A DNA stretch of 64,000 nt, from the IMG/VR virus record IMGVR_UViG_3300032236_001081, positions 1 through 64,000 of that record; one strand, 5' to 3'. Origin of the DNA: a virus. The position numbers and the translations under genes were made by a program. The notes beneath the pieces were generated by a model. That model had not been told where the DNA came from and did no database searches. It saw nothing but the letters and a program-made list of their open reading frames with translations. Of this stretch, positions 7,141 to 38,885 are shown piece after piece; within the stretch, counting starts at the first letter, position 1; each line of letters opens with the position of its first letter.

Positions 7141-7197
7141 GTGCCACTTGTAGAACTGGCACAGTAAACGGGCACAGACGCCAAATTGTGCTATTCT
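7141..7197 (+). promoter_or_regulatory. Early promoter with palindrome (copy 5)
   Basis: The arms GTGCCA (7141-7146) and TGGCAC (7157-7162), the block AGTAAACGGGCACAG and the extended -10 TGCTATTCT (-10 at 7192-7197) match copy 4 closely. The palindrome-to-10 gap is again 29 bases. It drives the gene at 7252. Confidence 0.7.
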
Positions 7198-7199
7198 AA

Positions 7200-7219
7200 G
7201 GGGGTGGAGGGACGCCCCC
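7200..7219 (+). promoter_or_regulatory. 5' leader hairpin
   Basis: GGGGG (7200-7204) pairs with CCCCC (7215-7219) directly after the -10 region, in the same position as the hairpin at 6804-6823 but with different sequence, so structure rather than sequence is kept. Confidence 0.5.
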
Positions 7220-7251
7220 AACACATTCAATACACCAAATTAACCAACACA

Positions 7252-7404
7252 ATGACTAACGAATTCAACCGCGACCTGATGATTTCTATGCTCCGTAAGG
7301 GTCAAAATGGCAATCAAATCCTTGACATTCTAAATGCAATTACTCCTGATAACGATGTGCAGGCAGATGTGACTGTGGAGGATGCTGAACTGATTGAAGC
7401 CTGA
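7252..7404 (+). CDS. Short conserved-type phage protein
   Basis: A 50-residue protein starting at ATG 7252 after CCAACACA; no Shine-Dalgarno. The N-terminal LMISMLRKGQNGNQILDIL followed by NAI is a helix pair of the sort found in many cyanophage 40-60-residue proteins of unknown role. The C-terminus is acidic (VTVEDAELIEA). It is the last early gene before the repeat array. Confidence 0.6.
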   Translation: MTNEFNRDLMISMLRKGQNGNQILDILNAITPDNDVQADVTVEDAELIEA

Positions 7405-7414
7405 TTTCGTGAAT

Positions 7415-7450
7415 AAGTATTCACTGCTACTTCGTGTAGAGTGAATACTT
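7415..7450. repeat. Long hairpin 1 of the array
   Basis: AAGTATTCACT-G-CTAC (7415-7430) pairs with GTAGAGTGAATACTT (7436-7450): 15 base pairs with one bulged G and a TTCGT loop. It starts 10 bases after the 7252-7404 stop, but no T-run follows, so it is not a classical terminator. Confidence 0.75.
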
Positions 7451-7451
7451 T

Positions 7452-7502
7452 GATACGGGGGGAGGGTTCGTTATTCTGTGCAAACAGTGGTGTTTACTTC
7501 GT
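7452..7502 (+). repeat. 51-base direct repeat, copy 1
   Basis: It starts GATACGGGGGGAGGGTT, has CAAACAGTG at 7481-7489 and ends ACTTCGT. It aligns without gaps with copies at 7602-7652 and 7803-7853. The distances between copy starts are 150 and 201 bases. Confidence 0.85.
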
Positions 7503-7522
7503 GGTAATTAGCACTGTTTGCA
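7479..7522. repeat. Long hairpin 2 of the array
   Basis: TGCAAACAGTG (7479-7489) pairs perfectly with CACTGTTTGCA (7512-7522). An inner TTAC/GTAA stem closes a TTCGTG loop. The left arm belongs to repeat copy 1, while copies 2 and 3 lack the matching right arm. Confidence 0.75.
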
Positions 7523-7590
7523 TACTTATCCTCCCTACTTCGTCCTGTTGAGCTACATAAACCACAGTCTACTTCGTCGCAGTTCTTTAT

Positions 7591-7604
7591 ATCCAATTTT
7601 GGAT
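7591..7604. repeat. Short perfect hairpin before repeat copy 2
   Basis: ATCCAA-TT-TTGGAT (7591-7604) is a perfect inverted repeat abutting the GATACGGGGGG of copy 2. Confidence 0.6.
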
Positions 7605-7652
7605 ACGGGGGGAGGGTTAGCTATTATGTGCAAACAGTGCTACTTAGTTCGT
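7602..7652 (+). repeat. 51-base direct repeat, copy 2
   Basis: The GATACGGGGGGAGGGTT block (7602-7618) and GTGCAAACAGTG block (7628-7639) are identical to copy 1. The end is TTAGTTCGT, and the total length is exactly 51 bases. Confidence 0.85.
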
Positions 7653-7685
7653 TATATGCACCCCTAAATGTAAACAATTCGGCGC

Positions 7686-7700
7686 AATCACTTCGTGATT
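7686..7700. repeat. Perfect AATCAC-TTC-GTGATT hairpin
   Basis: Six perfect base pairs close a TTC triloop; the other strand reads C-GAA-G at the loop, a known extra-stable DNA triloop type. TAGAAT (7700-7705) follows immediately. Confidence 0.75.
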
Positions 7701-7715
7701 AGAATAGCTGAGAAG

Positions 7716-7744
7716 TTGACATTACTTCGTGATACTGATAGAAT
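7716..7744 (+). promoter_or_regulatory. Promoter TTGACA-17-TAGAAT inside the array
   Basis: A perfect -35 TTGACA (7716-7721), a spacer of exactly 17 bases that contains ACTTCGTG, and -10 TAGAAT (7739-7744). The same hexamers and spacing occur at 9255-9283. Transcripts would begin within the hairpin at 7747-7791 and copy the G-rich repeat copy 3. No gene of useful size lies between here and 8136. Confidence 0.65.
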
Positions 7745-7746
7745 GT

Positions 7747-7791
7747 GAATTGCGATTGATAGTTACTTCGTGTTACTTTCAGTTGCAATTC
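7747..7791. repeat. Long imperfect hairpin 3 of the array
   Basis: GAATTGC (7747-7753) pairs with GCAATTC (7785-7791); the inner part pairs with four interspersed mismatches or wobbles down to a TTAC-TTC-GTG centre. The arms are about 20 bases long. Confidence 0.65.
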
Positions 7792-7802
7792 TTCGTTTAT
7801 TT

Positions 7803-7853
7803 GATACGGGGGGAGGGTAGTGTATTTTAATCAAACAGTGTTACTTAATTCGT
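7803..7853 (+). repeat. 51-base direct repeat, copy 3
   Basis: GATACGGGGGGAGGGT (7803-7818), CAAACAGTG (7832-7840) and TTACTTAATTCGT are aligned without gaps to copies 1 and 2. The middle is more diverged (TTTTAAT in place of TTATGTG). Confidence 0.85.
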
Positions 7854-7863
7854 TATTTTGGCA

Positions 7864-7913
7864 CTTCGTGTATTAGAATAAACAATTAATCGCAGTTCTT
7901 CGTGTATTAGAAT
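7864..7913 (+). repeat. 16-base direct repeat CTTCGTGTATTAGAAT (2 copies)
   Basis: Perfect copies lie at 7864-7879 and 7898-7913. A shorter relative, CTTCGTGATTAGAAT, is at 7691-7705. Each joins a TTCGTG motif to a TAGAAT that resembles a -10 hexamer. Confidence 0.75.
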
Positions 7914-7957
7914 TACAGTGTATTATGATTGTTGGGTATTATTAACCCTTACCGATG

Positions 7958-8105
7958 CCCCCCCCTTATATAATTTCAATGTACTACCCTAAGCTATAAA
8001 CTACCAAATTCGCTAATATATTACATGTCTTCAAAAAAAATTCCCCAGGAAAAAAATATTGATAAAAGTGTTTTTTGTGAGAACTTTGAAATCATATATA
8101 ATTTT
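7958..8105. other. C8 tract and AT-rich stretch downstream of the array
   Basis: Eight consecutive C (7958-7965) mark the end of the array. The following 140 bases to about 8105 are strongly AT-rich (TTATATAATTTC, AAAAAAAATTCC, CATATATAATTTTTAAAC) and contain no ORF. Such a stretch could act as a DNA-unwinding element if the array is an origin. Confidence 0.5.
8075..8102 (+). promoter_or_regulatory. Promoter TTGTGA-16-TATAAT
   Basis: A -35-like TTGTGA (8075-8080) is separated by 16 bases from a perfect TATAAT (8097-8102), 33 bases before the ATG of the 49-residue gene at 8136. Confidence 0.5.
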
Positions 8106-8135
8106 TAAACGCCCCCATTGAGAATAGGTAAAACA

Positions 8136-8285
8136 ATGAAAATAGATTTTGATGAATATGAGAAAGATATTCTCTTAGAGACACTTCAATATAGAATTGA
8201 GAATGACGAGAGATTAATACTTAGCGAAGGTATTAAAGATGATATTCAAGAACTTTTAAGAAAAGTAGAAGATGAATACTTATAA
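8136..8285 (+). CDS. Small acidic helical protein
   Basis: A 49-residue protein, almost entirely charged helix (FDEYEKDILLETLQYRIEND, then IQELLRKVEDEYL). It overlaps the next gene by 14 bases, implying coupled translation. Short helical proteins like this commonly accompany the next gene's family in cyanophages, as I recall. Function unknown. Confidence 0.55.
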   Translation: MKIDFDEYEKDILLETLQYRIENDERLILSEGIKDDIQELLRKVEDEYL

Positions 8286-8484: not shown

Positions 8485-9243
8485 ATGGCAAAAGGATTTA
8501 CAGTAAAGGCAAAGCCACCTGAGGCAAAGCCCCTTGAGGATGAATTTGATTTACAGGCAGCAAAGGAATTAATTAAAGGAAAGACAATTGTATTTTGTCT
8601 ACCTGGAAGAGGAGTTTCATATGTTTATCTGAAGAACTTTGTTCAACTATGTTTTGACTTAGTTCAAGCAGGAGCTGCCATTCAGATTTCACAGGACTAT
8701 AGTTCAATGGTAAACTTTGCACGTTGTAAGTGCTTAGGAGCCAATGTTCTGAGAGGACCAGACCAAATTCCTTGGGATGGAAAACTTCCTTATGACTACC
8801 AGCTATGGATTGACTCTGACATTGTGTTTAATACCGAGTCTTTCTACCGTCTAGTTGCAATGGATAAAGATATTGCAGCTGGTTGGTATTGCACGGAAGA
8901 TGGACACACTTCCTCAGTAGCTCACTGGTTGGATGAAGATGATTTCCGAGGCAATGGTGGTGTGATGAATCACGAAACCTTGGAAACTATGAGTAAGCGT
9001 CGGAAGCCTTTCACAGTAGATTACACTGGATTTGGTTGGACTTTGATTAAGCATGGAGTATTTGAACATCCTGGGCTAAAATATCCATGGTTTGCTCCAA
9101 AAATGCAAGTTTTTGAGTCTGGAGATGTTCAAGATATGTGTGGAGAAGATGTAAGTTTCTGTTTAGATGCAATTGCAGCAGGTTTTGAAATTTGGTGCGA
9201 TCCTAAAATCCGTGTCGGACATGAAAAAACTCGGGTAATCTGA
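8485..9243 (+). CDS. Glycosyltransferase-like protein (GT-A fold)
   Basis: A 252-residue protein. After a charged 25-residue leader it has TIVFCLPGRGVSYVYLKNF, an N-terminal Rossmann-like segment, and YQLWIDSDIVF, where D110-S-D112 fits the metal-binding DxD of GT-A glycosyltransferases. The C-terminal half has SGDVQDMCGEDVSFCLDAI followed by AAGFEIWCDPKIRVGHEK, typical of the acceptor and His region of family-2-like enzymes. It may modify host surface polysaccharide, phage DNA or virion protein; which one cannot be told. It has its own promoter and terminator. Confidence 0.7.
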   Translation: MAKGFTVKAKPPEAKPLEDEFDLQAAKELIKGKTIVFCLPGRGVSYVYLKNFVQLCFDLVQAGAAIQISQDYSSMVNFARCKCLGANVLRGPDQIPWDGKLPYDYQLWIDSDIVFNTESFYRLVAMDKDIAAGWYCTEDGHTSSVAHWLDEDDFRGNGGVMNHETLETMSKRRKPFTVDYTGFGWTLIKHGVFEHPGLKYPWFAPKMQVFESGDVQDMCGEDVSFCLDAIAAGFEIWCDPKIRVGHEKTRVI

Positions 9244-9633: not shown

Positions 9634-9975
9634 TTGGAACAGTTTTCTATGGGGTCTCATCTTCTTTTAGAAGTATACGACGTAGAATTTAATCTTCTAA
9701 ATGAAGAAAAACCTCTTTTAGAGGCTATTATTCGGGCGATTTCTCTTGCGAAGATGAATATCTTGAATACTTTCAGTCATTGCTTTAATCCTCAAGGTAT
9801 TACGATTGTAATTGCACTGTCTGAGAGTCATTGTTCTTTACATTCTTGGCCTGAAAATGGATGTGCATCAATAGATGTCTATACTTGTGGTGAAGGTAAT
9901 CCAAAACTTATTGTATTAGAGTTATTGAAATATTTTAACACTGATAATTACACACTAAGAGAATTAGATAGATAG
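9634..9975 (+). CDS. speD: S-adenosylmethionine decarboxylase proenzyme (SpeD)
   Basis: A 113-residue protein of the small prokaryotic class. It decarboxylates S-adenosylmethionine to supply aminopropyl groups for spermidine. The motif LSESHCSLHSWPENG is present. Cleavage between E64 and S65 would generate the pyruvoyl group. S65, H70 and C85 sit at the same relative spacing as the catalytic Ser63/His68/Cys83 of the Thermotoga enzyme. The start is taken as TTG 9634, 8 bases after GAGGT; ATG 9649 is an alternative that keeps all catalytic residues. speD is a recurrent cyanophage auxiliary metabolic gene; its product may aid DNA packing or host polyamine supply. Confidence 0.88.
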   Translation: MEQFSMGSHLLLEVYDVEFNLLNEEKPLLEAIIRAISLAKMNILNTFSHCFNPQGITIVIALSESHCSLHSWPENGCASIDVYTCGEGNPKLIVLELLKYFNTDNYTLRELDR

Positions 9976-12611: not shown

Positions 12612-15600
12612 ATGTCAGAAATAAAAAGAATAAAAATTCAGAATCTTATAGAGTCTCAAATCCCAGAATTTTTAAACGAGGAATCTCCACTTTTTCAAGA
12701 ATTTCTAAAACAGTATTATACTTCTCAGGAATATACTACAGGATTAAATGACCTTGCAATCAATTTAAATCAATATAAGGGAATTGAGAACTTCAACGCA
12801 GAGACATTTTATAATTCTTGTAAGTTAAGTTCAAATGTATTGTCTTTTGATAATGAAATTTCGGTCAATAGCACTTTTGGATTTCCTAGTTCATACGGAC
12901 TCTTAAAGATAGATAATGAGATTATTACCTATACTGGAATTACTACAAACTCTTTTACTGGATGCGTTCGTGGATTTAGTGGTATTGATGCCAATTCAGA
13001 CCATTCGGAATTAATATTCAAATCAACTTCGGTAGAAGAACATTCTTCTGGAAGTAAAGTATTTAATTTAAATTTACTATTTTTTAGTGAAATATTTAAA
13101 AAGTTTAAGTCTCAATATCTTTTAGGATTTGAAGACCGTAAGTTTTATTCACAGATAAGTTTACAAAATATATTAACCAGAGCAAAAGACTTCTACGCTT
13201 CAAAGGGAACTGATACTTCATATAAGTTGCTATTTAAAGTCTTATATGGTAAAGACATAAGTATCGTTGACCCTAAAAATTTTACAATAAAACCATCTAA
13301 CAATCCAGCTCTAGTTACTAAAAATATTGTTGTTGAAAAAATTAGTGGAGTTGGTGACCCTATAGATTTAATTGGAAAAACTATATCTCAAGCTATTCCT
13401 GGAGGAAGGACTGCTAGTGCTGCAATTTATAATGTAGAGTATAGAAAGACTGATAACAGAGACTTATATGAAATCTCATTAGATTCAGAAAGTTTTATCT
13501 ATAATTTTATTCCTACAAAAAAAACTAATGTAGTAGAGACTATTAATATTAACTCTACTTCTATTTCCGTAGATTCAACTGTTGATTTTCCAAGCTCTGG
13601 TACTGTTTATATAAAACCGGCCAATAGCTTTACTTCTATTCCAATTAATTACCAAAATAAAAGTGCAAATCAATTCCTAAATGTAAGTGGAATTAATATT
13701 GAAGTTCCTTTCAATAGTGATATTATTGAAGATAATTTTGCATACTCTACTTTAGATAATGGCAATATTCTTAAGTTTAGAATATTTAATATTATAGAGT
13801 CTGTTGATTATTCAAAGACTTCTAATTTGAGAGTCGGGGATAAAATTTATCTATCTTCTTTTGGTGAAAATTATCAGGATTTCCCTGAGTATAATAGTTG
13901 GATGTATAATCTTCCAACTTACCATAATATATCAAATATTAATGGTAACATAATTACCACGGTAGATAATATTTTACTTTATAAGGGAGATACTATTGTA
14001 TTATCAGACACTACAATTCCAAATAATCCTACATTAATAGTTCCAGTAGATAGTATTATTTCTAAAAATAAATTTACTGTCTTAGGAGTATTACCTAATA
14101 TTAGGTATAATCGGATTCAAAAAGTTATCAATAAGAGTAGATTAAATCCTAATATTTCCTCCAGAATTCAAAATACTTATATTGACACCTCAACTGATAA
14201 TATAGTTACATTATCTTCAGGACTTCCTGATTACAAAGATATTGTATTAGATAATAGAGAAGTAGGATTAACAATCACAGGAGTTGGAACATATATATTC
14301 TCCACTACTGATACACACTACTTCTATACTGGAGAGAAGATTCATTTTACTCCAAGTTTAGGGTTCAGTGGACTTTCTACTGGAACTTATTTTGTAAATA
14401 GATACTCTAACACTTCAATATCATTAGCTTACAGTTATAGTAATCTTTATGCTAATAATTACATAGGAATTCAAACTAGTATATCAAATATTGGAACCAT
14501 CGTAAAATTAGGGTATGAGGGAAAAAATGACTCAATCCTAGACCATCAAAAATTATTAAAAATATTCAATATCAATAATAAAAATAATGAGGATACAACT
14601 TTAAGTAAAAATACGATTGGCAAGTCTCTAGGATTACTTATTAATGGAGTTGAATTATATTCATCTGCTATATTTAATGAAGGGTATTATTATGGTCAGA
14701 TTAATGATATTGCAATTTCAAATTCAGGGAAGGATTATGATGTCATAAATGCCCCCACAATTCAAATTAGTGACGAAGGGGGGGAAGGTGCTGGAGCACA
14801 AGTTTATGCCAATATGAGAGGCACAGTGAGGGCAATCCGGGTGATTTCTCCAGGAATTGGCTATCAAGTTAAACCTAAGATTTCTATAATTGGTGGAAAT
14901 GGATATGGTGCAGTGCTTGAAAGTAATTTAGTACAGTCACCTATTATATCTTACTTCTTAGGTTCTGCAATATCATTAAATGTGATTACTTTTGCAGGCA
15001 CTCATAAGTTTCAAGATACAGAACAAGTAATTTATCAAAATAATTCAAATCCAGAATTAGTGGGATTAACTAACAACTCCACTTATTATGTTGGTGTTAT
15101 AAATTCAACTCAAATTAAACTATACCGAAATAGAGATGATTCTATCAATAAGACTAATGCAATTGTTATTGGAAATAATGACACTGGAATTTATTATTTA
15201 ACGACTGTTGATATTAAAAATACTATAACTGAAGTATATGTAAAAGATAGTGGAAAAAATTATTCAAGTAAAACTATTAAACTTTCATCTTCAGAATATA
15301 TTGATGATACTACAGTTGGAATTAGCACTTTTGATAACTACATACTTGTTAAAAATCACAATTTAAGAGAGAAAGATATTGTTGTATATTCAACTACGAA
15401 TACAGTAATTTCAGGATTATCTACAACTAATCAGTATATTGTAAGTGTAATTGATACTAATAAGTTTAGATTAGCAGAAGCTGATTCTACAGATTTTTAT
15501 TATAATTATTCAAACAATAGATTTGTAAATCTGAATTCTATTGGTTCAGGAACACATACTTTTAAATATCCACCTATTCAAGTGGTGGTAGAAACTACCT

Positions 15601-18600
15601 CTGGGATATCTTCAACTACAATTTCTCCAGTATTTACCCCTATTGTACTAGGAGAATTTGAAAGCTTATTTATAGAAAATTATGGCACTAACTATGGTTC
15701 TTCTGATATTATAAACTTCAATAGAAGGCCAAATGTAAAAATTCAAACTCCATCTATAGACGCACTACTTAATCCAATTATACTTGAAGGAAAAATTGTT
15801 GGAGTTCAGATTTTATCTGGTGGAGCTGGATATGGAAAAGATATTGATATTGTAATTGAGGGTTCTGGAAAATATGCGCTATTAATTCCTACCGTTGAAA
15901 ATGGTAAAATTATAGATGTGACTGTAGTAAATTCTGGACTTGGGTATGTAAATAAAAAAACTAGCCTTCAAGTTGTAAAAAGAGGAAATTCTGCTAAATT
16001 TATAGCAAATCTAACAAAATGGACTTTAAATCAATACAAAAAATATTCAAATAAAATAAATGAGCTTACAGGAGAAGGAATTCTTATACCAAGTAATAAT
16101 GTTAAAAAAACTTTACAGTATATTAATTTTTATCCGCCAAAGAAATTAAGAGATGAAGTTGGAGATACTTCTGGAAATGCTTCTCCTATTTTAGGATGGG
16201 CTTATGATGGAAATCCGATATATGGACCCTATGTGAATTTACCTTCATCAACTTCTCCTTCAAAAGTTAGAAGTAGTTATCAATTATCTAATATAAATGT
16301 TAATACTATAAGTAGTATAAGGCCTGTCCAGTGGAATAACGGGGATTTCATAGAAGATTATAAGTATATTCCAAATTTTGGAGATTTAGATGAACATAAT
16401 GGAATGTTCATCAAAACTAATGAATTTCCTAAAGGAATATATGCGTATTTTACAACATTAGATGGTTTAAATTCTCCAGCATATCCATATGCAATAGCTA
16501 CGGAATTTAAAAATACGCCAATAATTAAAAATTTTAACGGATATGTTAATCAAGATTTAAATTTAGATTCTATTAATTTTATTAGAAATACTGGACCATA
16601 TTATCTAAATTCCGAAAATTCCGGATATTTACCAATAAGTAAAATTGAGCCAAAATATAAGCAAGAATTTATAGTAAATAATATTATTAAGTCTGGAATA
16701 GATTCTATTGGTATAGTATCTCCAGGTGATAATTTTATGGTTGGAGATAGGCTTCAATTTGAAAATATTCCAAATACTATTAGTCCAAGCTGCTCCGTAT
16801 CAAATATTAATGGAGTTCCTTTAACTAATATAGCAGTAGGTATTTCTACTTTAAAAAATGTAACATTTAAAAATAAAAATAATATAATTACAGGTATTAC
16901 GACAATACCTCATAATTTAGTATCAAATGATGTTGTTGTGATATCTTCAATTTCTTCTAATCAATATTCATCTTTAGAAGGAAGTAAAACTATTTCAGTA
17001 AGTCAAAAAACAACCGGGATTACAGTAGGCATCTTATCATCAACAGATACTGGAGTATCTACTGCGATTTCCGTCAATGATGTTTCTGGATTTAATATTG
17101 ATGATTATATTAAAATTGATTCTGAAGTATTGAAAATTAGAGATATTAAAATCAATCAATCTCAACTACTTGTAGATAGAAGTAATGATGGAGGAATTCA
17201 TACTGCTGGCGTATCTTTAGTTAATCTTCTTCCCACTAAATTTACATTTAATGAGCCTAAATTTAATGCCAATTTAAAAAGTAATTCTGTTGTATATTTT
17301 AATCCTTCAAATAGTATAGGGTTAGGAACTACTGGAACTACTTATATTGATTATGGCAATACAACTTATTTTGCTCCAGCCCAATCAATCTATATTGAAA
17401 ATCACAAATATTATACAGGTCAGCCCCTAACATATAAGGTGGGAATTGGAGGAACTGGATTGGTCGTGTCAAATTCTCCAACTTCACCTCAATTTAAATT
17501 AATTGATGGTCAAATAGTATATGCAGTAAATTATGGTGCTAACTTTGTAGGTCTATCTACATTAGGATTTACTACCAGTACTGGAATAGGTGTTAGTTAT
17601 AATTCATTATACTTTAGAGATAATAGCAATTCCCTAGGAAATTCTCATAACTTTACTACTCAATATGATTTAATCAGTGGAACAACTGAAAGATATACTA
17701 TAACTGCTAATACAAAATCTCCACATTTATTATCAACTAATGATATAATTGATTTTAAAGTGATAACCTCCGATGCAGTTGATGTTGAATTAAATTATAA
17801 TTCAACTATTCGTAAAATAACTACTCCGCCTCTTACTTTTAATGCATCAACTGAAGTTAATGTTACAACATCTACAATTTATATTTCAGATGATTCGCTT
17901 CAAACTGGGGATAAAGTTGTATATACGAATTCAACCAATCCTTCTATTGGTGGATTAGTTGATAATGAAAGATATTTTGTATTAAGAGAAAGCCCAAATG
18001 CAATCAAATTGACTCAATATTATGATGACATATCTAAAAATAATTATGTCAAGTTAACTAGCACTAGTACTGGCACCCATTCAATTGCAAAAGTAAATCC
18101 ACTAATTTATTTAAATAAAGGAAATAAATACGAATTTATAGGAATTGGTACATATATTAAACTATACAAAGATTCAAATTACTTCTACGAATTGGAACCA
18201 TATAGGTATACCTCATTTACCTTAGATACCATTAATCAAGAGTACCCACAGGAGTTATATTATACTTTATCGCCTTTATCCGGGAGACCAGTATCTTTAG
18301 ATACTGATGTAATATCTGGAGGTAGAATTGTACTACTTGAAAATTCATATGATGGTAGATATTCAGTAATTCCAACTTCTGATACTTCATTCAGATTGAA
18401 CTTAAAAAATAAACCTCGTTATTTGGGAACTATTAATTTTAATAAGGCAACATATTCTACAACTTCAAAAACTGCTAAAGGTCCCATAAAAACTATTAAA
18501 GTAAATCAAAAGGGGAAATTTTATAATAAAATACCTAAAATTACTTCAATACTCACAACCTCTGGAAGTGGTGAATTATTAACTACAGTTTCTAGTACGA

Positions 18601-21600
18601 TAGGAAAAGTTGATACATTAGAAAGAGTTAAAGATGGATTTGATTATCCCACAGATGGCACACTATTGCCAAAATTATCTATACCTACTATTGCAATATT
18701 AAATAAAGTTTCTAATGTTAAATCCGTAGATGTGCTTTATGGAGGAAAAAATTATAATACTCCACCAAACTTGAAAGCAATTGGAAATAATGTATTACAA
18801 TTAACTACAGAACTTAAAGGAAATAGTGTATCTAAGGTAAGTATTATAGTAAATGATAATTCTCTTGATACACCACTATCAATAGTGCCTGTAAATAATT
18901 CTAATGGATTTGATATTATTGGAATAACAACTTCATCAACTAGAAATAGTATTGAACTAGACACTACATCTTATCCTTCATTATCTGGTGTGTTCCCATT
19001 TAGTGTGGGAGATGAAATTTTTATAGAAAACTGCAGTATCACCTCAGAGGTTCAAAAGAATTATAATTCTAAAGATTATAATTATAGATTTTTTAAAGTA
19101 ACCTCAGTAAATCAGAATACTTCAACTATAGAATATGATATAACTGGATTATTTGGATTTGGTACTTACACTTTAGAAAAGGGCTATGGTACGGTAGTTA
19201 ATCGTAAAGATATGGCTACTTTTAAGATGAATATAACTGATGATATTAATTATATTTCTGGTGAAAAACTAATTGGATTTAATACTACTGGAAATCAAAC
19301 CTTTACTGGATATGTAATGGAAGATGGGTGGGATAGTAAAATAAAGCAGATAAGAATTAATAAGTCTGAAGGGGAATTGGATATTGGATACCGATTGAAA
19401 GGAGAATTATCAAATCTCAAGGGAGAAATTACAAATGTAAATAATTTCAATCTAAAATCAAAATTAGGAGTATCTAGAGATAAAATAAATTATACTCAAG
19501 ATGATATTGGAGATTTAAATAATTCATTACAAAAAATATCGGATAATAATTATTATCAGAATTTTTCTTATGCTATAAGAGGTGAGGTTCCATATAGTGA
19601 TTGGAAAGAACCTGTACATTCAGTAATTCACCCTTCAGGATATAGAGAATTTTCAGATTTAGAAGTTATTAGTCAGGCAGGTAAACCTGTTGGAATGAAG
19701 ACTACTACTAACAATGAAGTAACTTTAATCGTAAAAATAGATAATGAAGTATCATTGCATACTCGTGATAATTTTGCAATTGCTTATGATGAAACCCAAC
19801 TTAATCAGTCATATGCTGAAAGAATAAGTTTTGGTGCAATTGAGCCTTGGAATGTTGCTGGAGTTGGGTTAACTGCAATTAAAGGTATTGACTTATTGCC
19901 TTATATTTTAAATAATACAAATAAAGTAATTGAAATTGATGATATTAGTGAGCAGTTTACTGGAACTAATGCTGAAATAAACATACAATCTAATATACCA
20001 GTAACTTTTAATCCACAATATCCATATAACTTAGGAGTATCTACTGCGGGACTATCAGTTGGAGATATTGTTGGTTATTCTACTTATCATACATATCCAG
20101 AAAATACTGGTATTACTTCAATCGGAATTGAAAGTGTATTTACATTATATCCACATAAGTCATATTCAGGAATAGTGACTGAGAGTTTAAGTTTTTCTAG
20201 AAGATTAAATGGAAATATAGTATCTGGAATTAGTTCATTTAAATTAACTAATAAAACTACTCCTCTTTTCAGTAGGACTTTTAATTCTAATGATAGTTCT
20301 ATTGTAAATTTAACCACATACAGTTTTAATATTAATAATCATAACTTACAAACTGGTCAAAAAATATTCTATTCTTATCAGGGTGGAACTCCTATTAGAA
20401 TTGCTACTACTAATTTAGTTTTAGGTGGAATATCTACAAATATACTACCTTCAACTTTATATGTCAATAAAATTAATGATAATAGTTTCCAAGTGGCTGG
20501 GCTATCTACATCTATAAGATTAGAATTGACTAGTTTGGGAATAGGAACTCATAAATTTACTGTGGACAATCCAAATGTTAATGCTTTAATTTCTATTGAT
20601 AATATCATACAGAAACCAATTTACAATAGACCAATTACTTTAGGGTTAGTAAATAATGCTAATGTGGGAATAACTTCAATTTATGTGAATTCTGGAATAA
20701 GTTCTATTTCAACTATTGATATTCTTAAAATTGATGAGGAACTTCTAAAAATAATTAATGTAGGTATAGGTTCAACTAATGTAATAAATGTTAAACGAGG
20801 GTTCCTAGGAACTCAGGAGAAGAACCATACATCTGGGTCTAGTATTAATATCATTAGAGGTGACTATAATATTATTGAAGATACTATATTCTTTACATCT
20901 CCTCCACAAGGTCCTACTGGATTAGAAGGTCTAAAAGTATCGTCTTCTTTCTCGGGTAGAGTATTCAGTAGAAAATTTGACCCTACATATCCAGATGATA
21001 AAAATATTATTTTTGATGATATATCGGACCAGTTTACAGGACTATCTACATTCATCTTAAAACAAAATCAAAATAGTATAACGCAAATTTATAATAATAG
21101 GAATTATGGAACTGATGCAAGTAATAACCCACTGATATTCATAAACAATATATTACAAGTTCCTGAAACTGATTTTACAATTCAAAATAATAGTGTAAAT
21201 GAAATTAGTTATCTAACGGGAATTCCAAATTCTGGTAAGATTTTAAATGTTGGTATCAATACAGCCTTCGGCTATGTGCCTCTTATAGGTGCTGCTGCAA
21301 CCGTTTCGGTGTCTGGATTTGGCACTATCTCCAATGTGTATCTTACAGGGGCAGGGACTGGCTATAGAACTCCTCCATACATTAGCCTAGGCTCTACAGT
21401 TGGGCAAGGAGCTTCTATTATTGCTAATGTAGGTACATCCGGAACTATTACTGGGTTTACTATCGTAAATCCAGGAAGTGGTTATACTTCAACTGCAGTT
21501 CCTATTGTAAATATTGATACTCCTCTACCATACTATAACTTAGATGTGGAATATGCCCCAGGAAATTCTGGATTAGGTACAGGAGCCAAAGTATCAATTT

Positions 21601-23090
21601 CAGTTGCAAGTGATACAACTATCGGTAGTTTCTTATTAAATGACCCAGGTTCCCTATACAAAGTAGGAGATATCTTAAAAGTAGTAGGATTGACTACAAA
21701 TCCTACTGTAGGAAACTTATTTGATGAGTTTAGATTAACTGTAACTGAAACTGTTTCTGATATTTTTAGTGGATATTATCCTGGACAATTTATACAATTT
21801 AATGATATTTCAAATAAGTTTAATGGTTTTGAAAGATTATTTGACATAAAAACTCCTGTAAATGGGATTGATACTAGGATTACATTTAAAGTTCCTCCTG
21901 GTTCAGATTTAGTTATTGAAAATAATTTCTTTATTCTTATTAATGGCATCTTACAAGTGCCAACTGTAGCATACAGATATTTTGCTGGAAGAATACAATT
22001 TACAGAGCCTCCATCTTCTGGCTCTACTTGCACTATATTATTCTATAGAGGTTCTAGCTCTGATGTGGAGGAAGTTACTCCAGTCCAAACTATAAAAGAT
22101 GGTGATATTTTACAATCTAGACAAAATGTAACTTCTACAGTAACTACCGAACAGCTAGAACGAGTTGTTAAAAGAATAGTACAATCAAATACTTTAGATA
22201 CTTTTGTTTATACTGGATATGGTATTACGAATACTGCTAGACCTTTAAGTTGGACTAAACAAACTGCTGATAGAATTATTAATGGCTCTTTGATTTCCAA
22301 ATCAAGAACAACTTTAAAATCTAATATTACTCCGAACACATTCTTAATTAAATCTGTAGGTATCACTGATACTGCAATTTATGTAAATGATGCATTCCCA
22401 TATTTCAGTGAATTGGATTCTGGTCCGACTAAATTACCAGAATTCAAGAGAAATATTAATATTTTAGATTATACTTCTTTAGACTTAATAAAATATGAAA
22501 AACTAGTCTCAGTGAAAGTTAAAGGTGATTATGGTACTATAGTTGGAATTAATACATTTATATCTTCTGTTGGAATACAAACAGGAAGATTAGAATTTAA
22601 ATTAAAATCAAATACATATAACAATAATGATTTAGGAATTGGATATAGTTCTTTAAATACTTTTGGAATTAATTCAAGTCAACTAGAAATTGGGGACTAC
22701 TTTGTAATTTCTAATAGTAATGTAATATGCGGACACGCACTGACTGGAATAACTGATAGTTTAGGGGGAATGTCTAATTATCCAAATTCAAAAGTTGGAA
22801 CTGCAAGAAGTTTTATTGATGGTGTTTATAGAGTGGAGGGGGTAACTGCTGCAAATGCCGGAATTGTTACTGTTAGTTGTAATTTTGTTGCTGTAGATGG
22901 TGGACTATCTGTAAATATTGCAGGATTATCTCAAACTACTTTCTATGGAAATTATAGTTGGGGTAAATTTTACGATTATGATAACCGACAATTGGGAACT
23001 CCTAAGCAATTTGATGTGAATACTAACGATGGGCTAATTGGACTATCTACTTCATCTCAGGTTTCTAGAACAGTACCTCTATTACTTTGA
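12612..23090 (+). CDS. gp7: Giant baseplate wedge protein (gp7-like)
   Basis: A 3492-residue protein, more than three times T4 gp7 (1032). Position and N-terminus (IKIQNLIESQIPEFLNEESP, LFQEFLKQYYTSQ, ASKGTDTSYKLLFKVLYGKD) fit the large gp7-like proteins of cyanophages. The rest is a chain of beta modules. GxGY-x-PP units lie near residues 703, 745, 1070, 1106, 2041, 2911 and 2955. 'Leading-edge' units with GT-H-F ends lie near 569, 796, 914, 1759 and 2575. ID-x-E-x-L-x-I...RG-x-x-G-x-x-x-H units lie near 99, 1502 and 2706. GWAYDGNPIYGPY near 1195 resembles a YHYH domain. The C-terminus has paired FINNILQVP and LINGILQVP segments. The frame is uninterrupted. Confidence 0.8.
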   Translation: MSEIKRIKIQNLIESQIPEFLNEESPLFQEFLKQYYTSQEYTTGLNDLAINLNQYKGIENFNAETFYNSCKLSSNVLSFDNEISVNSTFGFPSSYGLLKIDNEIITYTGITTNSFTGCVRGFSGIDANSDHSELIFKSTSVEEHSSGSKVFNLNLLFFSEIFKKFKSQYLLGFEDRKFYSQISLQNILTRAKDFYASKGTDTSYKLLFKVLYGKDISIVDPKNFTIKPSNNPALVTKNIVVEKISGVGDPIDLIGKTISQAIPGGRTASAAIYNVEYRKTDNRDLYEISLDSESFIYNFIPTKKTNVVETININSTSISVDSTVDFPSSGTVYIKPANSFTSIPINYQNKSANQFLNVSGINIEVPFNSDIIEDNFAYSTLDNGNILKFRIFNIIESVDYSKTSNLRVGDKIYLSSFGENYQDFPEYNSWMYNLPTYHNISNINGNIITTVDNILLYKGDTIVLSDTTIPNNPTLIVPVDSIISKNKFTVLGVLPNIRYNRIQKVINKSRLNPNISSRIQNTYIDTSTDNIVTLSSGLPDYKDIVLDNREVGLTITGVGTYIFSTTDTHYFYTGEKIHFTPSLGFSGLSTGTYFVNRYSNTSISLAYSYSNLYANNYIGIQTSISNIGTIVKLGYEGKNDSILDHQKLLKIFNINNKNNEDTTLSKNTIGKSLGLLINGVELYSSAIFNEGYYYGQINDIAISNSGKDYDVINAPTIQISDEGGEGAGAQVYANMRGTVRAIRVISPGIGYQVKPKISIIGGNGYGAVLESNLVQSPIISYFLGSAISLNVITFAGTHKFQDTEQVIYQNNSNPELVGLTNNSTYYVGVINSTQIKLYRNRDDSINKTNAIVIGNNDTGIYYLTTVDIKNTITEVYVKDSGKNYSSKTIKLSSSEYIDDTTVGISTFDNYILVKNHNLREKDIVVYSTTNTVISGLSTTNQYIVSVIDTNKFRLAEADSTDFYYNYSNNRFVNLNSIGSGTHTFKYPPIQVVVETTSGISSTTISPVFTPIVLGEFESLFIENYGTNYGSSDIINFNRRPNVKIQTPSIDALLNPIILEGKIVGVQILSGGAGYGKDIDIVIEGSGKYALLIPTVENGKIIDVTVVNSGLGYVNKKTSLQVVKRGNSAKFIANLTKWTLNQYKKYSNKINELTGEGILIPSNNVKKTLQYINFYPPKKLRDEVGDTSGNASPILGWAYDGNPIYGPYVNLPSSTSPSKVRSSYQLSNINVNTISSIRPVQWNNGDFIEDYKYIPNFGDLDEHNGMFIKTNEFPKGIYAYFTTLDGLNSPAYPYAIATEFKNTPIIKNFNGYVNQDLNLDSINFIRNTGPYYLNSENSGYLPISKIEPKYKQEFIVNNIIKSGIDSIGIVSPGDNFMVGDRLQFENIPNTISPSCSVSNINGVPLTNIAVGISTLKNVTFKNKNNIITGITTIPHNLVSNDVVVISSISSNQYSSLEGSKTISVSQKTTGITVGILSSTDTGVSTAISVNDVSGFNIDDYIKIDSEVLKIRDIKINQSQLLVDRSNDGGIHTAGVSLVNLLPTKFTFNEPKFNANLKSNSVVYFNPSNSIGLGTTGTTYIDYGNTTYFAPAQSIYIENHKYYTGQPLTYKVGIGGTGLVVSNSPTSPQFKLIDGQIVYAVNYGANFVGLSTLGFTTSTGIGVSYNSLYFRDNSNSLGNSHNFTTQYDLISGTTERYTITANTKSPHLLSTNDIIDFKVITSDAVDVELNYNSTIRKITTPPLTFNASTEVNVTTSTIYISDDSLQTGDKVVYTNSTNPSIGGLVDNERYFVLRESPNAIKLTQYYDDISKNNYVKLTSTSTGTHSIAKVNPLIYLNKGNKYEFIGIGTYIKLYKDSNYFYELEPYRYTSFTLDTINQEYPQELYYTLSPLSGRPVSLDTDVISGGRIVLLENSYDGRYSVIPTSDTSFRLNLKNKPRYLGTINFNKATYSTTSKTAKGPIKTIKVNQKGKFYNKIPKITSILTTSGSGELLTTVSSTIGKVDTLERVKDGFDYPTDGTLLPKLSIPTIAILNKVSNVKSVDVLYGGKNYNTPPNLKAIGNNVLQLTTELKGNSVSKVSIIVNDNSLDTPLSIVPVNNSNGFDIIGITTSSTRNSIELDTTSYPSLSGVFPFSVGDEIFIENCSITSEVQKNYNSKDYNYRFFKVTSVNQNTSTIEYDITGLFGFGTYTLEKGYGTVVNRKDMATFKMNITDDINYISGEKLIGFNTTGNQTFTGYVMEDGWDSKIKQIRINKSEGELDIGYRLKGELSNLKGEITNVNNFNLKSKLGVSRDKINYTQDDIGDLNNSLQKISDNNYYQNFSYAIRGEVPYSDWKEPVHSVIHPSGYREFSDLEVISQAGKPVGMKTTTNNEVTLIVKIDNEVSLHTRDNFAIAYDETQLNQSYAERISFGAIEPWNVAGVGLTAIKGIDLLPYILNNTNKVIEIDDISEQFTGTNAEINIQSNIPVTFNPQYPYNLGVSTAGLSVGDIVGYSTYHTYPENTGITSIGIESVFTLYPHKSYSGIVTESLSFSRRLNGNIVSGISSFKLTNKTTPLFSRTFNSNDSSIVNLTTYSFNINNHNLQTGQKIFYSYQGGTPIRIATTNLVLGGISTNILPSTLYVNKINDNSFQVAGLSTSIRLELTSLGIGTHKFTVDNPNVNALISIDNIIQKPIYNRPITLGLVNNANVGITSIYVNSGISSISTIDILKIDEELLKIINVGIGSTNVINVKRGFLGTQEKNHTSGSSINIIRGDYNIIEDTIFFTSPPQGPTGLEGLKVSSSFSGRVFSRKFDPTYPDDKNIIFDDISDQFTGLSTFILKQNQNSITQIYNNRNYGTDASNNPLIFINNILQVPETDFTIQNNSVNEISYLTGIPNSGKILNVGINTAFGYVPLIGAAATVSVSGFGTISNVYLTGAGTGYRTPPYISLGSTVGQGASIIANVGTSGTITGFTIVNPGSGYTSTAVPIVNIDTPLPYYNLDVEYAPGNSGLGTGAKVSISVASDTTIGSFLLNDPGSLYKVGDILKVVGLTTNPTVGNLFDEFRLTVTETVSDIFSGYYPGQFIQFNDISNKFNGFERLFDIKTPVNGIDTRITFKVPPGSDLVIENNFFILINGILQVPTVAYRYFAGRIQFTEPPSSGSTCTILFYRGSSSDVEEVTPVQTIKDGDILQSRQNVTSTVTTEQLERVVKRIVQSNTLDTFVYTGYGITNTARPLSWTKQTADRIINGSLISKSRTTLKSNITPNTFLIKSVGITDTAIYVNDAFPYFSELDSGPTKLPEFKRNINILDYTSLDLIKYEKLVSVKVKGDYGTIVGINTFISSVGIQTGRLEFKLKSNTYNNNDLGIGYSSLNTFGINSSQLEIGDYFVISNSNVICGHALTGITDSLGGMSNYPNSKVGTARSFIDGVYRVEGVTAANAGIVTVSCNFVAVDGGLSVNIAGLSQTTFYGNYSWGKFYDYDNRQLGTPKQFDVNTNDGLIGLSTSSQVSRTVPLLL

Positions 23091-24673: not shown

Positions 24674-27600
24674 ATGGCTCAAAATACAAATCTCAACATT
24701 TTTCCATATTATGATGATTTTGACCCTTTAAAAAATTATTATAAAGTACTATTTAAACCAGGAGTTTCCATTCAAGCAAGGGAAATTACTACATTACAAT
24801 CTATCTTACAAAATCAAATTGAAAGATTTGGTAATCATTTTTTTAAAGAAGGTTCTGTAGTTATACCTGGGCAAATTGCTTATGATTTTAATTATACTTG
24901 TGTTGAAATTAACGATTCTCATTTAGGTATTCCAGTATCTGCATATATTGATAAGCTTGTAGGTAAATTGATTCAGGGGGAAACTAGTGGAATTAAAGCA
25001 AAAATAGATAATTATATTACTAATGTAGATTCAGATAGATCAAATTATACCCTTTATATAAAGTACCAAAGTTCTGATACTACTAATTTCAAATTAAGTA
25101 AATTTAATGATACTGAAAATTTGATTGTCCTTGAGGATGTTGATTATTCATTATCTTCATTGCGAGCAAATTCTACTTTTGCAACTACAATTTCTTCAGA
25201 ATCTACTTCCGTAGGAACTGCTGCGAAAATAGCAAAAGGTATATATTTTATTAGGGGATATTTTGTAGAAGTTTCATCACAAACAGTCATTTTAGACCAA
25301 TACACGAATACTCCATCATATAGAATTGGACTATCAATTCAAGAAGATTTTGCTGTAGCATCTAATGAATATGATGACCTATTTGATAACGCTCAGGGAT
25401 TTTCAAATTATACATCATCAGGTGCAGATAGATTAGTTATTAATACTACTTTAATTAAAAAATCGTTAAATGACTTTAACGATGAGAATTTTATTGAATT
25501 ATTGAGAGTAAGAAATGGTATTGTAGAGAAAATTACAAAAACTACAACTAATAACTTATTAACTGAGGAACTTGCAAGAAGAACTTATGATGAGTCTGGA
25601 GACTATTATGTGAAACCATTTAAAGTTGCATTAAATGAATCATTAAATAATAAAATTGGAAATAATGGCATTTATAATCTCGGTCAACAAACTAAAAGTG
25701 GAGGAAGCCCTTCTGATGATTTAGCCTGTCTCAGTATAGATGTAGGTAAGGCATATGTTAGAGGATATGAAGTAGAACCTCCTACTGCTTCTCAAATTGA
25801 TATTAATAAGCCTAGACAGACTGCCACTGCAGTTAATGAGTCTGTGCCATTCAGCATAGGTAAACAAATAATATTAAATAATGTATATGGAAGTATTCCT
25901 GTTGGAATCAATACAACTTCTATTGTAAAATTATATAGTGATAGGACTTCAAGTGCTGGCTCTCCGTCTGGAACCGAAATTGGGGTAGCACGAGTATATG
26001 ACTTTAAACTTAAAAATTCCGAGTATGTTGATAAATCTACAAAATTTGAATGTTCTTTATATGATATTCAAACCTATACTAATATTACTTTAAATTCAAA
26101 TATTTCTTCTATAACTACTCCTGCTTTTATTGAAGGCAAAAATGGTGGAGCTTCTGGATATCTAGTATCTAATGTAACAGACTCAAATGCAGTATCATTA
26201 TATCAAGTTTCTGGAACTTTCCTAATAGGAGAGCAAATCAAAATTAATGGTATAGATGACACCAGAACTATTAGAACTGTTAGAGATTATAGTATTTCTG
26301 ATATTCATCAATTATATCAAACTGGGTTTACTGCTGATGTATTATTATCTAAGGTAGTAATACTAGGTTCTTCTAGTTCATTTTCAATTTCAGATGGGAC
26401 TTCTGGAATAAGCACAGTAACTAGTTCAAATCAAAATTTCTATTCGGGAATAAATGTAGGAGATATAGTATCATACACTATTGGAAATTCTAAATTATCC
26501 ACATATAGTAAAGTATCTACTATTAGTTCAACACTGAAATCAATAACAATTGTTCCTACGGTAGATGTGCCTAATGTATGTTTAGGTAGTTTACCAACTA
26601 CAGTATCTACTGTAAATGATTTTAAAAAAATTACATTAGAATTATTGAATACACCTAATGCTTATTTGTATTCTGAATTACATAATAAAAATATTTCAAA
26701 TTTAAACCTTAAAAGTTCTGATGTAATTATCAAAAAATCATATAATATTGCTCCCAATAGTCTTACTTCGGGTTCATATAGTGTAACATTAGAGTCTAAC
26801 CCCGATTTAACTTTAGAACCATTTGATGAAGAAGACTATACTTTAACTTTTTCAAATGGAGTTATAGTTTCATTAGATAATCAAAAATTAATACCCAACA
26901 ATAAAACTATAACAATTCAAGGTATACCTTCTGGGAATGCGAATGCGGCTACACTTACGGTAACATTTAAAAAAGTTAATACAAAGACTCGTAAAAAAAT
27001 ATATAATCCTTGCTCCACATTAATTATTAATAAAACTAGCTCAGGAGTATCTACTTCCACGAATGGACTAACTCTTAGTAATGTATACGGACTGAGAGTA
27101 GAAGATAAAGAAATATCATTAAATATTCCAGATGTTGAGTCGGTTTTAGCGATATATGAATCTTCAACTACTAATGAACCAGAACTACCATCAATTACTT
27201 TGACTGATTTAAATTCTAGTATCTTAAATTCTAGTATTGGTGAAAAAATTATTGGGACTACAAGTAATGCAGTTGCTACATTAGTTTCAATTACTAGTAA
27301 TAAAGTTAATTTAGTATATTTAAATGAAAATAAATTTGTTGCTAATGAAGAGGTTACATTTCAAGTATCTAATATAAAGGCAACTGTGTTTTCAGTTGCA
27401 TTAGGAGACAAAAATATTAGAAATTCTTATGTTTTTGATAATGGATATAGAAAAGAATTTTTAGATTTCTCAAGAATTATACGAAATTCTAACGCTGAAA
27501 GTCCAACCCGAAAACTTAAAATAGTCTACAATAATTATACTATTAAATCTGATGATGATGGTGATTTTGTTGGAGTGAATTCATATGATAAAGATAGATA

Positions 27601-30600
27601 TTCATTTAATATACCAGTATTTGATGCAATAAGGTCTACCGATATTATTGATTTAAGACCAAGAGTTTCCGCATACTCAGGAAGTAAGTCTCCATTTGAA
27701 TTCAATTCAAGAGTATTTTCTTCAGAGAATGGGTCATCTCCCTATATCTTTGCTAAAGATAAAACAATAAACTTATCATATTCATATTATTTACCAAGAA
27801 TTGATAAATTATTTTTAACTAAAGATGGTGATTTTATTATCAATAGCGGAGTTCCTTCAATAACTCCAAAATTACCCAATACTTTAGATTCAGCACTAGA
27901 GGTTGCCACAATTTATTTACCTGCATATCTGTATAATGTAAATGATTGTAATATTATACTATCTCCACATAAGAGATATACTATGAAAGATATTTCTAAT
28001 ATAGATGATAGAGTATCAAATGTAGAGTATTATACTTCATTATCTTTGTTAGAGACTGATACAAAAAATTTAACTATTAGAGATTCTCAAACTAATTTAA
28101 ATAAATTTAAGTGTGGATTTTTTGTAGATAATTTTAAGAGCTTAGATGGTGGAGATTCTAAGAATATTAATTTTAAAGCAAGTATTGATTTAGAGAATGA
28201 GACATTAAGACCACAGCATTATACTACTTCTCTTGATTTATTACTCGGGTCTGAGTTAGTAAGTGGTACTGGTATAGTATATAACCCAGAGGCAGACCCT
28301 AGATATGTTAAAGATTTAGGTTCCCCAAATATTAAAAAGGTAGGTGATATAGTTTGTTTAAACTATAAAGATGTGGAATATGTTGCAAACAGATTCTCGT
28401 CTAGAGTTGAAAATGTAAATCCATTTAATGTTATCAATTGGTTCGGCTCTGTGGTATTACATCCATCTAGTGATAGTTGGTTTGAATCTAAACTCATCGG
28501 AAGTAATACAGTAAATGTGGAAGGTAATTATAATTCAACTATATCCCGATTAGGTGCAGACAGTAACACTGGACTTGCTCCGGCACAGTGGAACTCTTGG
28601 AATCAATCAACTACCACACTAGATGGTGGAGGTGGAAGAAGATTAGTATCAGATATAACAACTGTTAATAGAGCTGGAACTCAAGTTCAAGTAAAGGAGC
28701 AGTTCGTTGCAAATACTTCTACTAGTATAAATTCTCAGAGTATTATTCTTGGAATGAGGTCTAGAAATATTGAAGTTGTTGCAAAAAGATTAAAGCCAAA
28801 TACTAGATTCTATGGATTTTTTGATGGCAAAGATATGAATTCATACTTTATTCCAAAACTTTTGGAAATAAAGATGGTAAGTGGGACTTTCCAAGCAGGA
28901 GAAACTGTAACTGGAATATTGGGTGCTAAAAATATTTCATTCAGGCTTGCTTCTCAAAATCACAAATATGGTCCATATAATGCACCTACGGAAACTTATA
29001 AAACAAATTTATATCAAGCTACATCTGGACTATCTAGTGTTTATTCATCTACATCTACATTATTGAATGTAGATACATTTAGTTTACAATTGAAATCTAC
29101 TTCACAATTTTATGGTTGTGTTTCTATTGGTATGCAACTAGTTGGAGGAACAAGTGGAGCTATAGCTACCATTTCAGATTTAAGATTAATTTCAGATTCT
29201 AGTGGTACTTTAATTGCATCTCTCTTTATTCCTGATTCTAATCTACCCTCTACTCCAACTTTCTCTACTGGAAGTAAGACATTAACGCTAACTAGTAGCT
29301 CATCAAATTCTCAAATTGCTGGAATTTCTGATAGTTCTGCAGATGCAGTATTTACTTCAAGTGGAACTTTAAATAACACTCAAGAAACGACTCTTAGAAT
29401 TAGAAATGCAACAACCACAACAAATAACATTTTTGATTCTAATACTACAACTACGCAGAGATGGGTAGACCCTCTAGCACAATCGTTTGAAGTAGCAGAT
29501 ACTAATGGGGTATTCATTACAAAATGTGATATATTCTTCCGTTCAAAAGATACTAATAATATTCCAGTTACCTTGCAGATTAGAACTATGCAAAATGGAA
29601 CTCCTACTCAACAGATTTTGCCATTTGCTGAAACTGTTATGGAGGCAAAAGATGTAAATATCTCGGAAGATGGAACAGTTCCTACTACTTTTGTATTCCC
29701 TTCTCCAATATATTTAGAACAAACAGGTAGTGGATATGCATTAGCATTAGTCTCAGCATCTGATTCTTATACTGTTTGGATTTCCAGAATGGGAGAGACT
29801 GATGTTTCTACTATTAACAAGCCAGATTCTGAAAAAATTATAATCTCTCAACAGCCAAGCCTTGGGTCCCTATTTAAGTCTCAGAATGGTTCTACTTGGG
29901 AACCAAGTCAATTAGAAGACTTAAAATTTGTATTATATAGAGCTGACTTTAATACTTCAGGTACTGTAAGATTTTATAATCCAGAGTTAAATATTGGAAA
30001 TCATCAAATAGTATCACTGTCTTCTAATCCAATTTCTGCATATTCTCAATCTGCTATTGTAGGGTTAGGTAATAGTTTAACTTCAACTGATATTTCAAAG
30101 CTAAAAGTTGGTGTAGGAATTACTCAATTAAATAATCCTTACTTCTCAGGTAGATTAGTTTCTATATTAGGGGCTATCGGAATAGGAAGTACATTATCCA
30201 TAAATAATTCTGGGAATGGTTTTACTACCTCTACAACTTATTCAAATGTAGACATAGTAAATATCACAGGAAATGGAAGTGGAGCAAAGGCAACTCTGGT
30301 CACTAATGCTTCCGGTATTGTAAGTTCAGTTACAGTAAATTCAGGTGGTTTTGGATATGCTATCGGAGATACATTAACTATAGACTATAATGACACTAAT
30401 AATTTTGGTAAGAATTTAGTTCTCAGTATACCTAATAATGTAGGAATTATCTCTGCATTTAACTCAATTAGAATTGATAATATTCAAGGAACTGTTGATA
30501 ATAATACTAATGTATCCGTAGATTATATTATTTCCAATGGAATTACAATTACAAATGCATATGTAAGTTCATATTCTCCAATCAATAATGGAACCTATCT

Positions 30601-38327: not shown

Positions 38328-38885
38328 ATGAAAAGTTTTACTGAATTTATTTTAGAAGCTACTTCAATATGCAACCAATCCGGTGAGGGAAAATATTGTC
38401 CCTCTCACGGAAAGGAGAATTGCTCCAAATTAAAATCATATAAAACAGTTGAACAGATTGCTAAAAAGCATCGTCTTGATATTTCTTTTGTAAAAAATCA
38501 ACTTGAGATGGGAATTCCAATTGAGCACGAACATACTAAAGATAAAATGTTAGCAACGGAGATTGCACTTCAACATCTTGGTGAAATCCCAGATTACTAT
38601 ACCCGTTTGAAAAAAATGGAAGCATCAGCTAAAAAAGAACACAAAAAATTTAAAGATGTAAAAGAAGATTATACTGTAATACAATCTCGTGGTTCAACTT
38701 ATACGGTTTTATTAAATTGGAGAGGTCAACATCTTTCAGTTCAGATATTTTTCCCTAAATCATCAAGACCCACTAAAGATGAAGTCGTATTTGAGATAAG
38801 AAAAATATATCCAAATGCAATGGTCTTTTCATATGCACCATCAATTAAAGACCCAACTAAACCATTATTATTTACAGGTATATGA
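38328..38885 (+). CDS. Candidate co-packaged internal protein, DUF5661-like
   Basis: A 185-residue protein between the terminase subunits. The start MKSFTEFILEATS resembles the capsid-targeting leader of T4 internal proteins (MKTYQEFIAEA in IPI), and I8-L9-E10 before A11 fits the prohead protease gp21 cleavage rule (I/L-x-E). C15, C24, H27 and C32 next to it could bind zinc. Residues 60-105 (MGIPIEHEHTKDKMLATEIA, LQHLGEIPDYYTRLKKME) look like DUF5661. A further 80 residues form a mixed alpha/beta end. I infer a protein packed in the head, processed by gp21 and injected with DNA. The gene overlaps gene 17 by ATGA. Confidence 0.7.
   Translation: MKSFTEFILEATSICNQSGEGKYCPSHGKENCSKLKSYKTVEQIAKKHRLDISFVKNQLEMGIPIEHEHTKDKMLATEIALQHLGEIPDYYTRLKKMEASAKKEHKKFKDVKEDYTVIQSRGSTYTVLLNWRGQHLSVQIFFPKSSRPTKDEVVFEIRKIYPNAMVFSYAPSIKDPTKPLLFTGI

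Follow-up and report, generated by a model that had tools for sequence, protein, structure and literature searches.

The window, i.e., the whole stretch of 64,000 nucleotides that was analyzed, is part of a 75.7-kb IMG/VR record of a T4-like cyanophage (Kyanoviridae-like), whose nearest named relatives at the DNA level are ACG-2014f and S-SCSM2R. A gene-free gap is located between a 50-aa ORF that ends at 7404 and a short ORF that begins at 8136. The left ~545 nt of this gap (7405-7950) constitute an array of repeats and hairpins, and a C8/AT-rich conserved element is found on the right (7954-8061). No ORF of at least 60 aa is present between 7404 and 8485, in agreement with an initial sequence-only reading which had described the repeat stretch as non-coding. 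The same reading had placed the array at the border of the early and late regions, and the element is indeed positioned where a region of small ORFs gives way to the baseplate cluster; it lies upstream of the baseplate genes gp25/gp6 by a few kb and of gp6 itself (at 10732) by 2.7 kb. The S-adenosylmethionine decarboxylase gene (9634-9975) lies between the element and gp25, and two very large ORFs, at 12612-23090 (3492 aa) and 24674-31951 (2425 aa), are found downstream of gp25/gp6. The features of the locus are as follows:

7405..7950, + strand: non-coding array with three long direct repeats, hairpins and TTCGT motifs; forms the left part of the element and is specific to the lineage
7416..7449, + strand: hairpin 1, loop with TTCGT
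7449..7502, + strand: repeat copy 1, 54 nt
7479..7522, + strand: hairpin 2, in which CAAACAGTG of copy 1 pairs with CACTGTTTG
7599..7652, + strand: repeat copy 2, 85% identical to copy 1
7686..7700, + strand: hairpin 3, AATCAC-TTC-GTGATT, same sequence in the related locus L056
7716..7744, + strand: sigma-70 promoter TTGACA-17-TAGAAT (11/12), reading into copy 3 and the core element
7747..7791, + strand: hairpin 4, stem altered in L056 with two-sided compensation
7800..7853, + strand: repeat copy 3, 78% identical to copy 1
7954..8013, + strand: match to family model R1 (E = 3.6e-11), the sole match in the window
7958..7965, + strand: C8 tract, left end of the conserved element
7966..7974, + strand: AT box, TTATATAAT (TATATAAAA in most relatives)
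7983..8000, + strand: conserved core ACTACCCTAAGCTATAAA (family consensus ACTACCCTAACCTACAAA)
8033..8061, + strand: second conserved AT-rich block, A8-TTCCCCAGG-A7-TATT
8136..8285, + strand: short ORF right of the element, 49 aa, without family match
8485..9243, + strand: PHROG 1574 gene, function unassigned, used to gather syntenic loci

The array and its closest counterpart

The three repeats are ungapped and direct, with spacings of 150 and 201, and have ATACGGGGGGAGGG, CAAACAGTG and a terminal TTCGT in common. Their number, orientation and shared motifs are thus as originally described, while the length of 51 bases given at that time is better read as 54 nt. The TTCGT motif occurs fourteen times within 7406-7903, each time on the + strand and never on the other, and its density per 520-nt window reaches the maximum of the entire 64 kb at the array. 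Similarly, all six copies of ACTTCGTG in the 64-kb window (0.6 expected) are located in the array. Several of the four strong hairpins carry TTCGT in the loop; a fifth hairpin, proposed by the sequence-only reading and situated near 7864-7913, corresponds to a direct repeat in the window. The consensus promoter and the C8 tract that had been noted are both present, and the approximately 140 bases described as AT-rich do possess an A+T content of 73%, although this is ordinary for the window since 18% of all its 130-nt windows reach that value. The three repeats were also considered as promoters in their own right (TTGATA-16-TATTCT and similar), a reading that was dropped because the -35 hexamer is not retained in L056. 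Of note, in the leader of the small upstream ORF (7190-7250), which is kept in L056, TATTCT precedes GGGGGTGGAGGGACGCCCCC, a start hairpin rich in G that resembles the G tract of the repeats.

The array was found at the same place and with the same layout in one close relative, L056. This locus is 79% identical to the window over 750 columns, its downstream PHROG 1574 gene product exhibits 96% protein identity to that of the window, its repeats are spaced by 141 and 201, and its counterpart of the 7716-7744 promoter is TTGACA-17-TAAGAT. The consensus fold of the two sequences comprises 136 pairs, of which 109 are unchanged, 17 are changed on one side, 10 are changed on both sides and none is broken, the last figure being partly due to construction, as this very alignment had served to select the fold. 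The alifold energy is -89.4 compared to -65.6 for column shuffles (z = -4.0), and folding is better for the + strand of the array than for its complement. Conservation between the two loci does not extend to every stem, since the pair near 7864-7913 is inverted only in L056.

Eighty IMG/VR loci were collected through the downstream PHROG 1574 gene. The array is absent from most of these, unlike the C tract and the sequence that follows it, which are present in most of the 80 loci, usually 300-500 nt upstream of the PHROG 1574 gene. A blastn search of the array against phages returned no array, with only the small upstream ORF being matched, and exact GATACGGGGGGAGGG was encountered in 51 stretches of IMG/VR. 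Three further loci (L067, L106 and L125) possess arrays of other sequence that are composed of the same ingredients, i.e., a C or G tract, a CAGTG-like motif and TTCGT; these arrays, and that of L060, are wholly different in sequence from the array of the window. Furthermore, the region 20-160 nt to the left of the core contains CAGT in 88/88 loci and TTCGT 123 times versus nine occurrences of its complement ACGAA. Because CAGT and strand-biased TTCGT recur at this position, the array, with its CAAACAGTG and TTCGT motifs, on comparative grounds amplifies motifs present at that place throughout the family.

The conserved element and its neighbors

The element displays a constant layout, namely a C tract, an AT box, the core ACTACCCTAACCTACAAA and then an A7-TT-CCAGG-A7 block. 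A 57-nt consensus was located in 321 phage records, all of them cyanophages, at 322 places, almost never under an annotated gene, and a repeat search with a second query returned 319 records. For 24 of 25 cyanomyovirus genomes, the best match to R1, a sequence-only model built from 42 members, is situated upstream of gp25/gp6, the matches being weak in S-PM2 (E = 0.003) and Sf-FR1 (E = 1.5e-4). ACG-2014f is missed by the model and carries CTAACCTACAAA at the corresponding place. The second AT-rich block, as an A6-9TT motif, is found within 220 nt of the core in 67/90 loci (4 expected), and in most relatives the tracts on the transcribed sense strand are C-rich rather than G-rich. Taken together, these matches identify the array of the window as the variable left portion of an element that has never been annotated and that occurs, nearly always once per genome, in T4-like cyanophages.

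The genes downstream of the element vary among genera, with the core remaining constant. In many relatives, an AbrB/MazE-like ORF (with Pfam scores just below the cut-off) is located immediately to the right of the element, for example at 2778 in L058, at 2772 in L075 and at about 1842 in the Syn9 locus L207, while the ORF beside the element in P-RSM1 is annotated as AbrB/MazE-like. These ORFs start with codons, ATGAAAAAAAATTCCGGAGAAAATTTT, that are similar in sequence to the element's second AT-rich block.

DnaA boxes, promoters and skew

The sequence TTTTCCACA is the cyanobacterial DnaA box (PMC4674748). Seven to eight exact copies are present within ~215 nt at the left edge of the TTCGT arrays of L067, L106 and L125. 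The 23 complete genomes that bear the element contain 97 exact boxes, 34 of which fall within 2 kb upstream of the core, where 1.15 are expected; the Poisson P for this clustering overstates independence and is not to be taken literally, because the genomes are related. All 18 box pairs less than 60 nt apart lie between -125 and -3698 from the core (in 14/23 genomes), and no such pair was found elsewhere in those 23 genomes. In addition, an unbiased count of 9-mers over the 1.4 kb upstream ranks TTTTCCACA first in over-repetition, with at least two copies in 11/23 isolates; the 9-mers ranking next overlap TTTTCCACA, and the next non-overlapping 9-mer and the downstream control reach 2. A host-consensus box cluster is present in 14/23 isolates plus L067, L106 and L125. 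It is absent from the other 9/23 element-bearing isolates, and neither the window record nor L056 contains an exact box. Degenerate boxes near the element do not cluster in phages without exact boxes. The clusters of S-PM2 and Sf-FR1 are distant from the element, at 5.9 kb (over annotated tRNAs) and 4.0 kb, respectively, while in Syn9 the element is located at 53.5 kb and the boxes at 52.6 kb. Of note, a second conserved and apparently non-coding motif, TAGTCTTAGCACG, is found 65-110 nt to the right of the box cluster in several genera, which is ~470-870 nt to the left of the core in L137, L141, L207, L209, L217, L218 and L220.

Near-consensus promoters (at least 10/12) read into the element in 19/82 loci, compared to 1.9 expected and five on the other strand, and several of these score 12/12. 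Cumulative GC skew had been put forward as a check on an origin at this position, and here the expectation failed: in six complete genomes of relatives, no minimum or genome-scale turn is observed at the element. The cumulative AT skew of these genomes likewise lacks a turn there; the curve climbs steadily past the element, which would follow from nearly all genes being on the same strand. A local GC-skew step (mean +0.19) is seen in 55/60 loci, and in some complete genomes it is exceeded at no more than a few percent of positions. That of the window is modest, being equaled or exceeded at 12-23% of positions, and the step could instead stem from a change of gene class.

The element as a candidate replication origin

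Several known origins offer points of comparison. T4 oriE is situated 1.7 kb upstream of gene 6 among the baseplate genes, similar to the position of the present element upstream of gp6, and both regions carry direct repeats near a border of transcription regions. R1 nevertheless finds no sequence match in T4. The oriE iterons are 12 nt long and evenly spaced, whereas the window possesses three 54-nt copies at spacings of 150 and 201, and several short, evenly spaced direct repeats of the iteron type were found in neither the window nor L056. Furthermore, oriE lies inside gene 5 and employs an antisense primer RNA, while the element of the window is non-coding, and a review describes no DnaA-box cluster for oriE, in contrast to the clusters seen in many relatives of the element. 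The T4 origins oriF and oriG consist of a promoter followed by an AT-rich stretch, an arrangement also present in the window with its TTGACA-17-TAGAAT promoter at 7716-7744. They involve a UvsW-type helicase, which the window may also encode: the 490-aa helicase at 50417-51889 (PHROG 16) is compatible with UvsW. However, oriF and oriG have no conserved core sequence, unlike the cyanophage element. Cyanomyoviruses lack MotA and MotA-type middle promoters (PMC2984593). The oriC regions of the cyanobacteria Synechococcus PCC 7942, Anabaena and Cyanothece contain clusters of exact TTTTCCACA, as do relatives of the element (PMC4674748), but neither dnaN nor dnaA adjoins the element, the window is devoid of boxes and the core is phage-specific. 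Conserved AT-rich blocks do accompany the core in relatives, the A+T content in the window itself being ordinary (73%). Finally, a predicted single theta origin of Syn9, as cited in PMC2984593, is possibly the same locus as the element at 53.5 kb, so part of this picture may already be known for that phage; no paper mapping an origin in cyanomyoviruses, or giving the element a name, was found in open-access text.

We consider it probable, though by no means secure, that region 7405-8061 represents the replication-origin region of this T4-like cyanophage. An origin is the best explanation for a nearly universal, single-copy, non-coding site with clustered host-initiator boxes in many relatives and an early promoter. 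The oriE-like position and the L056 array also favor the origin that the sequence-only reading had proposed, while the genome-scale skew does not. For the window, which is without DnaA boxes, the case is one of homology and position. The R-loop mechanism suggested at the outset may operate but receives no specific support, the A+T content of the window being ordinary, the tracts of most relatives being C-rich rather than G-rich on the transcribed sense strand, and the GC skew showing just a local step.

What is observed, i.e., the anatomy of the element, its single-copy conservation, the clustering of DnaA boxes and its position, can be accommodated in the following model. The invariant part (7954-8061), consisting of the C tract, the AT box, ACTACCCTAACCTACAAA and the A7-TT-CCAGG-A7 block, would be flanked on its left by a structured zone that recruits the initiator. 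This zone comprises a host DnaA-box cluster, a strong early promoter and CAGT/TTCGT motifs in many relatives, and in the lineage of the window an array of 54-nt repeats and TTCGT hairpins that is devoid of DnaA boxes, the repeats presumably standing in for the boxes. Host DnaA and/or adjacent sigma-70 transcription would open the AT-rich element early in infection, which may allow the phage primosome (gp41/gp61-type) to load. A broader proposition, to which we assign slightly less than an even chance, is that one origin element serves all T4-like cyanophages: most genera would fire it via host DnaA with oriC-type box clusters, unlike T4, whereas the lineage of the window would have exchanged the boxes for a TTCGT hairpin/repeat array recognized by another initiator.

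Other functions were weighed against an origin. The region might be a transcription hub, in which a strong early promoter, a structured leader and regulator sites meet at the border of the early small ORFs and the baseplate operon, and in which the core acts as an operator or attenuator, possibly for the downstream AbrB/MazE-like protein. Sigma-70 promoters of up to 12/12 that read into the element, the AbrB/MazE-like ORFs adjoining it in relatives, the strand-specificity of CAGT and TTCGT and the location at the early/late border are all in line with such a role. Yet the core stays constant while the downstream genes differ among genera, ordinary promoter motifs are not single-copy as the element is, host-type DnaA-box clusters would not be predicted, and the window has no AbrB-like ORF at this place; a hub is consequently rather unlikely. 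The tight clusters of exact host-type boxes in a lytic phage would also suit a decoy that titrates host DnaA (datA-like) and thereby halts replication of the host chromosome, the adjacent element being unrelated or regulatory. This we deem improbable, as there are just two to eight boxes per genome, placed beside a universal element rather than scattered, and conservation of the core in phages without boxes would be left unexplained.

A structured non-coding RNA, transcribed from the 7716 promoter or from further upstream and with hairpins that act as RNA, would agree with the retention of hairpins between the window and L056 (z = -4.0, 10 compensatory pairs) and with the superior folding of the + strand. 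However, the whole window contains no Rfam match at gathering scores, the arrays of L067, L106, L125 and L060 have nothing of its sequence, the 67-nt region to the left of the core exhibits no folding excess over 82 loci, the core is conserved as sequence, and hairpins in single-stranded DNA fit the data equally well, such that an RNA function appears quite improbable. Least credible is a packaging-start or recombination site instead of an origin: a conserved, non-coding, single-copy site would be expected in that case, but the terminase genes (38882-40540) are not nearby, the DnaA boxes would have no explanation, and T4-like phages package by a headful mechanism, with no strict pac site known.

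If region 7405-8061 does function as an origin, the consequences extend beyond this phage. T4-like cyanophages are among the commonest viruses of the ocean, and one conserved site carrying DnaA boxes of the host would provide a precise locus at which phage replication is tied to an initiator that belongs to the host and tracks light and the cell cycle. The lineage of the window would illustrate how the recruiting half of an origin may be rebuilt with the core being kept, and the element can serve as a marker for orienting permuted genomes. S-B43 (MN018232.1) is the only one of the 25 genomes with two strong R1 matches, the second copy of the element being located at 140280-140339 (E = 7e-7) and possibly representing a second origin.
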